A DNA stretch of 64,000 bases from Tetradesmus obliquus (Eukaryota > Chlorophyta > Chlorophyceae > Sphaeropleales > Scenedesmaceae), in the NCBI GenBank assembly GCA_030272155.1, contig CP126196.1, forward strand, positions 3,720,001 through 3,784,000, written 5' to 3'. A program made the position numbers and the translations under genes. The notes beneath the pieces were generated by a model that saw only the letters and a program-made list of their open reading frames with translations, did not search any database and had not been told where the DNA came from. Shown here one piece after another: positions 1 to 63,758 of this stretch (positions are counted from its first letter, which is position 1; every line of letters begins with the position of its first letter).

Positions 1-665
1 AAGGGCACTGCTGCTGCAGGCTCCTTGAAGGCATCAATGCTGCTCATGGCCGCCACTGCCTCCACGTAGTCGGGGCTCAGGTTGGCCAGCTTGCCAAGGC
101 CTGCAGAGGCAAATGACGAGGTAACGTCAGTTATGCAGGAACTACAGAACACAGAGGCACTGCCTCCACATAGTCAGGGCTCAGGTTGGCCAGCTTGCCC
201 AGGCCTGCAGACACAAATGACAAGGTAACGTCAGTGACGTCAAACTAACATGACACATAGACGCTGCCACCACGTAAACAGGGCTCAGGTTGGCCAGCTT
301 GCCCAGGCCTGCAACAAAAACGTTAACACCATTAGTTTTCTTCAATTAACACAACACTCAGTCGCTGCCCCTCCACAAAGGGGCTGTAGGCTACTTGAAT
401 GCCTCAATGCTGCTGAGCGCCCCCACTGCCTCCACGTAATCAGGGCTCAGGTTGGCCAGCTTGCCTAGGCCTGCACATGACATACAGAATAACAGTGTGA
501 AAGTGTAACATTGTGGGAGCACAGCCACTGCCTCCACATAGTCAGGGCTCAGGTTGGCCAGCTTGCCCAGGCCTGCAGAGGCAAATGACGAGGTACCATC
601 AGTGATGCAGTAACTACAGAACACGGAGTCACTGCCTCCACGTCATCAAGGCTTGCCCAGGCCCG
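1..665 (-). repeat. Tandem copies of the SDR exon 4 acceptor side
   Basis: About six copies of intron end plus exon start (ctgcag, then the codons for GLGKLANLSPDYVEAV) start near 100, 206, 312, 472, 575 and 660 on the minus strand. Spacing is roughly 85-160 bp. The copy at 100 runs open to the edge and is taken as the real exon. The others run into stops or diverge within 50-80 bases. Each keeps an AG at the junction. Confidence 0.85.
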
Positions 666-2034
666 CAGAACAAGGTTACAGTAACAAAATAGCAACATTC
701 AGATCACAAACACGTTGCTGCCTGCACATAGTCAGATTTGGTGTACACCAACATGTTGGCCTGGCGCCAGCAGCGGCAGCAGCACTGGCAACCCCTCGTT
801 TTGCACCCGAGGCCACATGCACAACAAAAGAAAGAAAGCAGTGCAGGTGCCTGCTGCAGAACACCTACCTGACGACACGTTGATGATGAGTGCGCCTGGC
901 GCCAGCAGCGGCAGCAACGCCTGGCTCAGCAGCACCGGGCCTGCAGTGTTGACCGCCAGGGTGGTGTCATATGTTGGCTTGTCCCAGGCTGCCCTGACAA
1001 GGATGCCTGCATTGTTGACCTGCAGGGGTTCAAGGCCAACACGTGTTTAGAATTTGTTGGTTTTAGGGTTTGACAGTGGTGATTGTGTTGACCGCCAGGG
1101 TGGTGTCATATGTGGGCTTGCCCCAGGCGGCCCTGACGGGACTGCCTGCATTGTTGACCTGTGTGGGGGTGCAGGGTTTGGAAGGGTCGATAGTTTTCAA
1201 TTGTGGTTGTGTGCACCGCCAGGGTGGCGTTGTTGGTTCAACTAAGTTCAAGTTGGCTTGAAGGCCACCTACGAATGTCCCAGGCCTGCCTCATGCGGAT
1301 GCCTGAGTTGTTGACCTGCGTTATGTGTTCATGCTTTAAGCAATCGGTGATGAACTGAGAACCAGCGCGCAGACCTGCAAAAGACATCAGTCGCGCATTG
1401 TGCGCCCTTCGCTGCTGTCCTCACCAGATCTCTAGAGCCAGGCCCCCGAGGGGCACCAGGCAATGACAGGCGCATGTCAATTTAAACTGCTGAACAACCC
1501 GAGGTGCTCCAAAAGACGTGGCAGGAGTTGCAGCTGCCTGCTATGCGGATAACGTGTCTTGAGCAGCTTGCAGGAAATGCATGCTATGACGGTGCTGTTG
1601 CAAGCTGCTCCTGGGCTGTACTGCTGCCACGTGGCACACGTCTGCCCTGCTCACCAGCAGATCGATCTTCTGATCATATTCCGACTTGATGTGCTGCGCC
1701 AGCTCGTTTATGGATGCTGCACTGCCTGTGTCCAAGCTCAGCACTCGCACGTCCGTTCCATTCTTGCTGAGTTCGGCTGCTGCTGCCTTGCCTGCAACAC
1801 ACAAATCAAATGCTTTATGTAAAGATGATTTTGACTTCACATACGTACGCATGCGAATGCATGAGATGCTGTGGTCGCGGCAACACGTGGCAAGTGCCAA
1901 TTCATCGCACCTGCCTCCAAGTTCCTGCAAGTGAGGATCACTGGCTTTTTGCGCTCTACGAGCTGCTTGCAAACTTCCAGACCGATACCACGGTTACCGC
2001 CCGTGACCAGCGCATACAAGTTGTGGTTGGACAT
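1..2034 (-). CDS. Short-chain dehydrogenase/reductase, carbonyl reductase-like (partial)
   Basis: An NADPH-dependent carbonyl reductase of the classical SDR family, cut by the left edge. Exon 1 (2034-1911) starts MSNHNLYALVTGGNRGIG, the Rossmann cofactor motif TGGNRGIG. Exon 2 (1791-1655) ends in KIDLL. Exon 3 (1019-869) starts VNNAG, the SDR NNAG motif, and ends at NVSSG, which holds the catalytic-Ser strand. Exon 4 (100 to <1) starts GLGKLANLSPDYVEAV, close to the segment after NVSS in animal CBR1. The catalytic YxxxK lies beyond the window. Exon phases join cleanly (1, 0, 1). I chose the Met at 2034 because it sits just before the Rossmann strand; the frame is also open upstream. Introns 2 and 3 hold many partial copies of exons 3 and 4, listed separately. 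The CBR1-like identity is by motif order only; another SDR subfamily is possible. Confidence 0.85.
740..1320 (-). repeat. Partial copies of SDR exon 3
   Basis: The real exon 3 is 1019-869. Acceptor-side copies start near 1160 (VNNAGSPVRAAWGKPTYDTT) and 1312 (VNNSGIRMRQAWD). A copy of the exon end (LLPLLAPG region) lies near 790-740. The middle copy is the closest. The 1312 copy has the changed motif NNSG. Confidence 0.8.
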
Positions 2035-61800: not shown

Positions 61801-63758
61801 AAAGTCAAAGCCAGTAGTAAAAACTGGCAGCTCAAGACAGATGTTCTGCAGACCCTCATGTCACCCCATGATTTGAACCTGCACCCTGGCTACCCCAGCA
61901 GCTCCGGTCAAAGTCGGCTGAAAACAAGTTTTTTACAGACACTCCAGCTCACCCCAGGTTTCGATCCTGCGACCTCCTCGCCCCTGACCGAGTGCACCAT
62001 GCACACCCGCCCGCCTAACTTCCCGAGCAGATGGTGGCAGTACGGCTTGTCTACTGTGACTCTGCTGCCCATAACACTTGTTATATTTGTTTTTGCGGCG
62101 CGGTGCACTGCGTGCTGCACTGCTGCATTGGTTGACACAGCACACTGGGTTTCCAGGTCCAGGAAGTCCAGCATGAAGCAGCGCAGAGCTTCTGCATAGA
62201 ACTTCATGTGGGAGTCCCTGCAGGCAGCAGCATAGAACATCTGGTGGAATCTTTGTGTAAGAGTCCCTGCAGGCAGCAGCGAAAAACTTTAAGTGGGAGC
62301 TTCATGTGGCAGTCCTTGCAGGCAAGAGCACAGAACTTCATGTGGGAGTCCTCGCAGGCATGAGTTGTTTCGTAGCTGAAGTATGTACAGTCGCACTAAC
62401 GGAGTAAAGTGCGTGTATTAGAGCTGCCATCCCTTGCAGGGCCGTTGGCAAGGCAACTGCTGCAATGCCTGTGCTGACACAGCCATCAACTATAATCTGC
62501 AGGTGAGACAGCATCCAGCAAGCGTGAGCGCGCGTGTGGGTACACAATTGTTACTACACATGTGTAATTAAAAGCTACACCTGTTTACACACTGTTGTCC
62601 ACTGTCAGGCGCATATACCAAGCATCTACATCACACTGCTCACCCAATGAGCCACAAGGTACGGCCTTGCAGGAATCTGCAACCGTATTGCAGCAGCAGG
62701 TGCAGCAGCAGCGACAGTGTGGATCAGGATGCGATGTCGACTACTCCTGGCACCAAGCATGACTGCCATCAGGCACTAGCTGAGAAACATGCTGCCAATG
62801 TTCACTGCTGCTGCTGCTGCTGCTGCTGCTGCTGCTGCTGCTGCTGCTGAACCCCTGGCAGTGCATGTACATCCCACCTGACATATGCTTACTGGCCCAG
62901 CGCTGCCACTTGGCATGCAATGCTCTGTTACTGCATGACACTGGCACCTGCAGCCTTTTCCCTTGCCTAACAAACAGCATCAGGGCATCACACATTCTAT
63001 CAGGTCATAACACTTTCAATGATACCTGTGCAGCTCGCAAGGGCTGAAATCCGTCATGGCTGTTCCTTCAGCCGCCTGAGCTGCTTCCAAAACTGATGCT
63101 TGCTGAGAGCCCTTGCACTTCCATGGCAGCGCTGGGTTGCACTTTCCAGCAGCCCTGAATGGTGCAGCAGCAAGCGTGACATGAACCAGATGCATGCATG
63201 TTGAGGGCAGCTACGAGCTGTAGCGGTGAGCAGGGCTGCATGCAGCTACAGCAGGGGCGGACAAAGGCTTGCATCCACTAGATGCAGCAGCAGCTGCCTG
63301 TGGCTACCACATCATCAGTGTATTGGTGCCCCTGCTAATGTTGCTGCCGCCGCCGCTGCTGCTGCCACTGCTGCTGCTGTTGCTGCTGCTGCCGATATGC
63401 AAGTTTCAATCTACTGTCAACCATGCCCGTGAATAACAATAATGCATCTATCAGCTTCTGCTGTTGTCATTCTGCTGACCTGCATCAGGCATGCAGTGCT
63501 GCTGTTGCTGACGTTGCAGTTGATTTGTATGGCGACATACTTTGATCCTGTGCGCGGCCGGCAGTTGCCTGTGCATCTTGTGAAGCCGCCACCAAACAGC
63601 AGTGGTGTTCCCTCAAGGGTGTACTCTACTGGACACTCTGCTGTCGCTGCTGCTGCTGCTGCTGCTGCCTGCTGGTGCTGGGCGCTAACATGGCCACTGC
63701 TGTGCAGCAGCAGCAGCAGCTGAAATACTAACATGCGGCTGTAAATTATTCTGCTCAT
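58826..63758 (-). CDS. PC-esterase-like (GDSH / DxxH) secreted protein, exon structure approximate
   Basis: Probable acyl-ester enzyme of the PC-esterase/TBL-type superfamily that modifies wall or surface glycans. Recognised pieces, minus strand: a signal-peptide exon 63758-63482 (MLVFQLLLLLHSSGHVSAQH); an exon starting 62217 with DSHMKFYAEALRCFMLDFLD, which gives the GDSH block if the previous exon ends in GG; 61293-61141 (KDDIFYVNFGRWHFNNC); about 60735-60580 (a Ser run, then SFSELELMQDKFAA); near 60290-60240 (YDIVWRKAEEILG); near 59810 (INHMMIWLPRR); about 59690-59570 (YGVPVINDYALSRQLHTAHW, then WDCNHYCSPGLPE, the D-x-x-H block); and a last exon ending 58826 (HVWGEAALMGKGLQLW). GDSH and WDCNHYC give the Ser and the Asp/His of the triad. 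The joins between 63482 and 62217 are unresolved, and the first exon might belong to another gene. Confidence 0.65.
59175..59580 (-). repeat. Copies of the PC-esterase exon end and a (CAG)45 array
   Basis: The exon end LPE plus donor (near 59565) is copied near 59430 and 59190. Between the last two lies an uninterrupted (CAG)45 at 59284-59418 (135 bp), the longest microsatellite in the window; in the transcript it is (CTG)45. Confidence 0.88.
61141..61700 (-). repeat. Four copies of a PC-esterase exon start
   Basis: The acceptor ctgcag and the codons EPSLLAVLQAGAATKDDIFY start near 61665, 61548, 61420 and 61293 (spacings about 116-128 bp). Only the last goes on open to its donor. The copies degrade with distance from the real exon. 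Confidence 0.92.
61780..62010 (-). mobile_element. Possible tRNA-derived SINE remnant (two tandem units)
   Basis: On the minus strand, TGGTGCACTCGG (61999-61988) looks like a Pol III A box. GGATCGAAACC (61967-61957) looks like a B box in a small T-arm (CAGG and CCTG). A second B-box-like GGTTCAAATCA lies about 95 bp further. Two related blocks share gggtgcagg/gcaccctggct ends. The A-to-B distance is shorter than in a tRNA, so it would be a deleted or diverged unit. No poly(A) or target duplication was identified. Confidence 0.35.
62140..62355 (-). repeat. Four short copies of the GDSH exon acceptor
   Basis: A unit of about 50-60 bp (gcctgcagggactcccacat plus about 20 bases) occurs four times upstream of the exon start at 62217, reaching 62355. 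The copies keep gcag or a close form before GACTCCCAC. Confidence 0.8.
62805..62849 (-). repeat. (CTG)15 on the plus strand
   Basis: Fifteen units within the probable 5' intron of the PC-esterase-like gene; (CAG)15 in that transcript. Confidence 0.88.

Follow-up and report, generated by a model that had tools for sequence, protein, structure and literature searches.

Echoes of exon-intron borders in the introns of Tetradesmus obliquus and their possible source in diverged alleles

Echoes in the window and on other contigs

The window analyzed here is a whole stretch of 64,000 nucleotides of the green alga Tetradesmus obliquus (assembly GCA_030272155.1, contig CP126196.1; C6:3720001-3784000 in a genome of 104.66 Mb and 17 contigs), and the introns of its genes carry what we call echoes, that is, copies of an exon end together with its splice site that lie in the adjacent intron. 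A first-pass annotation had named ten genes with such copies, and each of the ten has one or more local direct copies that span a predicted splice border. Pfam searches place 8 of the 10 named families above the cut-off, namely, SDR (adh_short, PF00106), PAF-AH, TPR (the TTC1-like gene), prenylcysteine lyase, GNAT, DnaJ (PF00226), Fer2 (PF00111), and SPRY (PF00622) with CTLH (PF10607) in the RanBPM-like gene. The match of the M3 protease is just below the cut-off (26.7 vs 27 bits), and in the same searches the SRPBCC domain was not called and the PC-esterase-like protein was left without a family.

Our main sample of 264 kb from six contigs comprises the window and 40 kb each of C1 to C5 from position 1,000,001, which are fixed places and not random ones, and a held-out set comprises 10 kb each from C8, C10, C12, and C15. 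Genes were modeled with a self-trained, home-made gene finder, which predicts 41 genes and 282 introns in the 264 kb with a total score of 6186, compared to 1217 on the reversed sequence, and whose trained splice consensus is CAG|GTGAG for donors and CTGCAG|G for acceptors. Counts use 361 of the 564 predicted borders (282 acceptors and 282 donors), those from exons scoring at least 5, and 62 of 69 border families have a copy whose homology comes within 3 bp of the border. Several echoes were taken for exons by our own gene finder; tandem look-alike borders mislead gene prediction. The echo sites in the window genes are as follows.

1..653, minus strand: SDR, last visible exon 1-100 (acceptor border at 100) with upstream echoes at offsets 104, 208, 370, and 472; echo 477-572 called as an exon
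946..1319, minus strand: SDR acceptor border 1019 (source 946-1022) with two echoes, one at 1085-1161 (offset 139, 91%) and one at offset 296
3657..3856, minus strand: PAF-AH acceptor border 3708, source 3657-3713, echo 3800-3856
4468..4630, minus strand: PAF-AH acceptor border 4504, source 4468-4508, echo 4590-4630 (98%, offset 122)
4857..5191, minus strand: PAF-AH predicted exons 4862-4993 and 5098-5351 with a common donor end (4857-4955/5093-5191), one of them possibly an echo
5248..5860, minus strand: PAF-AH acceptor border 5351, 5248-5594/5485-5860, 70% overall
7265..7466, minus strand: PAF-AH acceptor border 7295 (weak exon, score 1), source 7265-7335, echo 7394-7466
9398..9588, minus strand: TTC1-like acceptor border 9455, source 9398-9458, echo 9528-9588 (97%, two synonymous differences)
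10437..10610, minus strand: TTC1-like acceptor border 10483, echo at offset 116
10646..10964, minus strand: TTC1-like first exon 10829-11287, with 10875-10964 copied at 10646-10732 in the downstream intron; homology ends 46 bp before the border, so it is not counted
13594..14549, plus strand: PCYOX donor border 13663/13664, seven echoes at offsets 145-828
14801..15173, plus strand: PCYOX donor border 14883/14884, source 14836-14891, echoes 14984-15039 and 15121-15170; codon changes of the nearest echo 5/5 synonymous
16331..16615, plus strand: PCYOX donor border 16368, source 16331-16387, copy 16555-16615 called as an exon with negative score
21868..22055, plus strand: GNAT acceptor border 22010, echo 21868-21923, source 22000-22055
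30344..30584, plus strand: M3-like protease donor border 30396 with a copy (94%, offset 179) called as an exon
30785..31449, plus strand: M3-like protease, 333-bp unit with acceptor border 31387 (92%)
33043..33211, plus strand: M3-like protease acceptor border 33177, echo at offset 130
37377..37597, plus strand: DnaJ-domain gene acceptor border 37545, echo 37377-37444, source 37530-37597
44898..45099, plus strand: 2Fe-2S ferredoxin gene acceptor border 45048, echo at offset 112
54603..55154, minus strand: RanBPM-like donor border 55085, four echoes ~118 bp apart; exon parts alike, spacers different
57010..57345, minus strand: RanBPM-like acceptor border 57107 with a copy (90%, offset 234) called as an exon
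60804..60928, minus strand: PC-esterase-like acceptor border 60829, source 60804-60835, echo 60897-60928 (97%)
61211..61704, minus strand: PC-esterase-like acceptor border 61293, three echoes, every ~128 bp

Self-comparison of the window yields many direct copies at offsets of 100-240 bp. With inverted repeats as the yardstick for chance, local direct repeats (offset at most 1500) cover 7-36% per region in the six regions vs 2-4% for inverted ones. Echoes lie in the adjacent intron at 62 of the 361 borders (~17%, about one in six), comprising 29/189 acceptors and 33/172 donors, and the regional counts are 21/87 in the window, 10/47 in C1, 0/58 in C2, 1/35 in C3, 6/60 in C4, and 24/74 in C5. 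Held-out contigs have echoes at 8/44 borders, on three of the four stretches. Echoes reach beyond the window and are found in most stretches sampled, which bears out part of the annotated claim of action throughout a genome segment, but their frequency is uneven, as the counts for C5, C2, and C3 make plain. The stretches C2 1000001-1040000 and C3 1000001-1040000 are nearly echo-free, and that of C2 is richer in G+C (0.618).

Copies lie on the side that had been described, with 62/70 acceptor-side copies upstream and 55/61 donor-side copies downstream among border-crossing alignments. Nearest echoes closer than 185 bp (46/62) have a median offset of 128.5 bp (interquartile range, 113-140), and the spacer between them and the exon has a median of 67.5 bp. 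The copied piece had been put at 50-150 bp; in these 46 echoes clear homology usually takes in 23-97 bp of exon and the splice-site core, and beyond this it is weak yet detectable. Repetition had been put at two to nine copies and is indeed common, but at most seven echoes were collected per border (in PCYOX), and the 8.4-copy array of a 183-bp unit at 24821-26356 is intergenic in these gene models. Offsets of the nearest border echoes fall into the classes 0/1/2 modulo 3 as 16/19/27, following no divisible-by-three rule.

Intron length and the placement of duplications

Among the 127 introns with both flanking exons well scored, median length rises with echo number, from 269 bp without echoes (n=98) to 407 bp with one (n=17) and 590 bp with two (n=9); an intron with four echoes has 803 bp (n=1), and those with five have 782 bp (n=2). 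After subtraction of 128 bp per echo, echo-bearing introns come to 279 bp, near the echo-free median, suggesting that they are ordinary introns lengthened one unit at a time. Growth of introns through tandem duplication of border-crossing segments, as had been proposed, agrees with these lengths, which rise by one unit (~130 bp) per echo, and we regard such duplication with intron growth as very probable. Moreover, what it predicts is found in the copies themselves: a common exon end with its splice site, homologous intron flanks (27/62 families), and lengthening by one unit. Intron lengthening is usually ascribed to transposons or small insertions; in the sampled genes, border-crossing duplication accounts for much of the length gap between introns with and without echoes. 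The Raphidocelis paper gives an average of 462 bp for T. obliquus introns.

The making of new introns, which had also been proposed for the window, is a different matter. In the model of Rogers, tandem duplication of AG|GT exon segments creates an intron, and a copy has to join the donor to the acceptor of one intron. This geometry is not found: the shortest distance between an echo border and the far splice site of the same intron is 95 bp, and in the 127 introns there is no likeness of the intron head to the downstream exon head (6.29 vs 6.12 matches of 24 in shuffled pairs) or of the exon tail to the intron tail (7.23 vs 7.31 of 27). Echo-free introns, moreover, already have ~269 bp. What speaks for the model is that 12 of 29 echo-bearing exons start with GT, compared to 33/160 without an echo; exons with GT at the start are real enough (45/189 strong acceptors), but the difference is weak and the AG|GT model is not needed to account for it. 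Recursive splicing at AG|GT was considered and rejected, GT at the exon start being enriched weakly. Intron creation by echoes is not supported, with no sign of introns forming here, and the chance that the Rogers model accounts for echoes is very slight.

A first coverage test did not favor an excess of repeats at borders: the median ratios of border to intron-interior repeat cover are 1.29, 1.16, and 1.52 in three settings, with 95% limits that all include 1. As a test of the claim it is flawed, because echoes lie in introns and count as intron cover, and family counts were used instead. Sorting the repeats by placement gives 107 families, of which 47 pair an exon border with an intron, 21 have predicted exons on both sides, 10 are exon-exon, 9 are intergenic, 6 are intron-only, and 14 are of other kinds; some of the 21 are echoes called as exons. 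With intron-only and intergenic families among them, the statement that duplication always includes a splice site is too strong. Random placement is nevertheless exceeded, as the annotation had expected: 47 of the 53 border and intron-only families are border families, compared to expectations of 0.43 from the present genes and 0.64 from a 269-bp intron. The latter is a hand calculation with a 128-bp unit, a 269-bp intron, and tolerated duplications crossing one border, and the probability of 47/53 against the milder expectation, also by hand, is ~1e-4. Young whole-unit families are intron-only in 0/12 cases. In large part the border bias follows from geometry and selection, without a special mechanism, and some of the excess is expected because old intron-only pairs fade from view sooner. 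Exon-interior families number 11, several of low complexity, and in 9/11 the period is divisible by three; their small number and their periods are as purifying selection predicts. Spacers shorter than 45 bp are nearly absent (2/46 vs 45% expected), as would be the case if duplications lasted only where the remaining border retains an intron long enough for splicing.

Placement also bears on whether echoes could be assembly artefacts, in which diverged haplotypes were joined with an unrecognized overlap. Strain reports describe assemblies that are about doubled in size or have their alleles separated, and 34/48 echo indels are of 1 bp, both of which favor such joins. However, exon-interior overlaps would be expected about as often as border ones (0.288 vs 0.291 by placement), and only 11 exon-interior families are found; the periods divisible by three in nine of these are not what joins blind to the reading frame would leave. 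Arrays of 5-8 distinct units and the near absence of short spacers argue against joins as well, making an artefact improbable.

Exon parts, intron flanks, and codon positions

The exon part is 90-100% identical in many echoes, and over the 40 intron bases past the splice core identity is near control level; of 69 echoes with an exon identity of at least 0.90, the flank is above the 99th percentile of controls in 18. Identity was followed position by position in 22 donor and 21 acceptor families, restricted to nearest echoes that align without gaps, have an exon identity of 0.85 or more, and match weakly in the flank. In the donor families it is 0.92-0.95 in the exon; the first six intron positions, +1 to +6, have 1.00, 1.00, 0.91, 0.59, 0.95, and 0.64, and from +15 it is down to 0.29-0.37. 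The acceptor families show a similar drop at the border. Copying limited to the exon end was dropped as an explanation, since matched controls showed residual flank homology. The echo flank is within the top 5% of matches to the flank of its own border in 27/62 families (3.1 expected) and near-identical to it in 4/62, and from these alignments echo flanks are best taken as diverged homologues of the flanks of their own border. Simulation puts their divergence at roughly 0.3-0.4, with indels, and at such an age the exon part of a neutral echo would be expected to be much less similar.

Differences between copies show a coding-like constraint, as exchange between alleles would predict. Exon and nearest echo differ by 69/61/222 changes at codon positions 1/2/3, with ~1287 sites each (62 echoes), further echoes by 96/84/185 (53 echoes), and held-out ones by 8/12/27 (8 echoes). 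The third-position share of 0.631 (family bootstrap, 0.566-0.701) exceeds the 0.455 expected for a neutral echo facing a constrained exon, with mutability taken from 33 flank alignments, and echoes contain 11 stop codons vs 26-32 under random change. Splice sites are kept: in nearest echoes with weakly matching flanks, GT is present in 23/23 donors and AG in 19/20 acceptors (8/8 in the held-out set), and further echoes keep GT in 16/21 and AG in 12/12. At the same time, 42/48 echo indels break the frame, such an indel occurs in 25/125 echoes, and a stop is present in 10/125. Seventeen young echo pairs (5 families) have diverged alike in exon part (0.034) and flank (0.032), as copies without constraint would. 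Coding-like differences, kept splice sites, and present decay fit together if an echo was a working exon end until recently, and echoes indeed look like exon ends that worked until recently and are decaying now.

Echo borders could instead still be in use, as alternative or regulatory splice sites selected now. Besides the coding-like constraint, this is suggested by donor scores like those of real donors (median, 2.55 vs 2.19; 2.55 for both in a second comparison) and acceptor scores not far below real ones (3.58 vs 4.48). However, the frame-breaking indels and the stops rule out present coding selection on echoes, and the tract upstream of echo acceptors scores low, though its pyrimidine share is like that of real sites (0.68, compared to 0.70 for real and 0.49 for random sites). 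A complementary splice site (score >5) at the other edge is found in 0.30 of donor-side echoes vs 0.25 of controls and in 0.07 of acceptor-side echoes vs 0.18; with no excess of partner splice sites, the copies fail as alternative or mutually exclusive exons. One case is the gene of the photosystem II D1 protease (L035), in which an S41 protease exon pair matches PDB 1fc6, a chain of Scenedesmus obliquus (now Tetradesmus obliquus), at 142/142 residues and a further exon piece differs from it at 2 of 45. This gene has an acceptor-side echo 91-94 bp upstream, and the solved chain (residues 151-197 and 212-388 compared) enters the exon without the echo. Present use thus seems quite improbable. 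In the S41 protease sequence L034 (on C14), two further copies of one exon start lie upstream of the real exon, with largely CTG repeats between.

Alternatively, echoes could be old sister-type tandem duplications whose exon part has been kept alike by gene conversion between exon and echo, with the intron flanks drifting. The flanks are diverged homologues, and in the C5 26500-27200 array units with different spacers have common exon-part types, as conversion would produce. However, a neutral echo, converted or not, should have ~45.5% of its changes at third positions and not the 63.1% seen. Identity also drops exactly at the border, and in the 22 filtered donor families GT, +3, and +5 are kept and +4 and +6 are not, a pattern at odds with conversion, which we consider unlikely.

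Proposed exchange between diverged alleles and relation to known systems

We favor unequal exchange between diverged alleles as the source of echoes, with a probability of roughly 45%, from the pattern of differences described above. An out-of-register (tandem) duplication of a ~128-bp segment across one exon-intron border would leave the exon with one intact border, and the second half-exon with its splice site would join the intron, adding one unit. Often the two would be diverged versions of one border, both functional until set side by side, since two copies can both work if they are in different alleles. They would be brought together by exchange between homologous chromosomes or alleles with strongly diverged introns and with exons that differ mainly at synonymous sites, and the echo would then decay neutrally. 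By hand estimate, the neutral phase would amount to ~0.045 per site, from second-position differences (4.7%), and the third-position surplus would need a further divergence of ~0.12 while both copies worked. We infer the allelic source and the exchange step, as well as which border is used in genes other than that of the D1 protease. Beside allelic exchange there is simple repetition of one border, as in the arrays of 98% identical units at C1 19320 and C5 23006.

Reports on individual strains are consistent with diverged haplotypes. The DOE0152z assembly (accession NEDT01000000, PMC5552973) has 208 Mb vs 109 Mb for UTEX393, and the report on NREL 46B-D3, a related strain, calls it "likely diploid," with alternate haplotype contigs and a haploid size of 103.4 Mb. 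The strains may be diploid with separable haplotypes. If exchange between such haplotypes is the source, echoes may be traces of recombination between diverged haplotypes in an alga. Introns could even, and we suggest this only tentatively, be an archive of allele exchange that keeps fossil borders of the partner haplotype and grows by ~130 bp with each, without transposons or new introns.

Several points weigh against allelic exchange. It does not explain the rate or the ~128-bp unit, nor why C2 and C3 have so few echoes. Where a family has three or more different flanks, several events or many alleles have to be assumed, and the implied pre-event divergence of ~0.12 per neutral site is very high. 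A crossover within the echo might leave a gradient of exon identity toward the border, and none is seen. The matrix score of the tract preceding echo acceptors (-0.87) is nearer random (-1.52) than real (1.26). Young pairs lean to third positions, with 5/6/19 changes between echoes and 5/7/30 between exon and echo (flank identity of at least 0.9; divergence 0.059 in the exon part vs 0.043 in the flank), which neutral decay after simple duplication does not give and which we ascribe to allelic patches. The gene models are home-made, with the reversed-sequence score given above.

Local duplication carrying splice signals is known from other systems. Tandem genomic duplication is among the mechanisms of intron gain in a review (PMC3443670), and the tandem genomic duplication of Rogers and the internal gene duplication of Gao and Lynch 2009, as cited there and in PMC4974935, likewise duplicate splice signals locally; the geometry of the former was tested in the alga and not found. 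The closest case found is a potato RdRp gene, in which a tandem duplication over the border of intron 1 and exon 2 gave rise to a new intron (PMC4974935). As in echoes, the tandem copy holds the 3' part of the intron, the acceptor, and the exon start. However, in that one gene the upstream exonic copy helped form the new intron, whereas in the alga no new intron is found, and echoes are on donor and acceptor sides, often in several copies, at ~17% of borders tested. Introners likewise change introns across a genome, but they are dispersed copies (PMC9860276), and the 62 echo spacers compared have no common family beyond CAG-like runs; a term search of the main text of that survey did not find Scenedesmus or Tetradesmus. 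Echoes resemble minisatellite-like arrays in their head-to-tail units, a few of which are very similar (98%), but most share mainly the exon part and splice core and have coding-like differences. In the top-ranked papers of one open-access library, no description of exon echoes in this alga appears in a title or at the beginning of an abstract.

Other sources for the copies were also looked for. A shared spacer element is not seen among 62 spacers, which give only CAG-like matches. Paralogues as a source for two window genes find no exon match elsewhere among the 40 of 1143 candidates scored, and a 9.8-kb intron-containing query has, among the 40 of 1143 candidates scored, outside matches only to CAG-type runs and two dispersed repeats. 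The PC-esterase-like gene (58977-62217) has exon matches on C1, C3, C5, C7, C9, C11, and C16 that suggest a gene family; its paralogues were considered for rate calibration and are too old.

The window contains further repeats. Tandem arrays at 22647-23186, 23193-23716, and 24821-26356 are intergenic or poorly modeled and have periods of ~181-185 bp; the first is ~70% alike to the array at 24821, and both flank open frames at 23695-24762, which by eye look like a retroelement tail and to which a Pfam search assigned no family. A long Arg/Gly/Asp-rich frame at 40776-43127 has a weak RanBP zinc-ribbon match, below the cut-off, and a repeat period of 126 bp, which is divisible by three. A dispersed repeat at ~18185-18400 has copies at 72-87% on C3, C4, C5, C7, and C11, and a ~75-bp repeat at ~17270-17400 has copies at 78-89% on at least 12 contigs.

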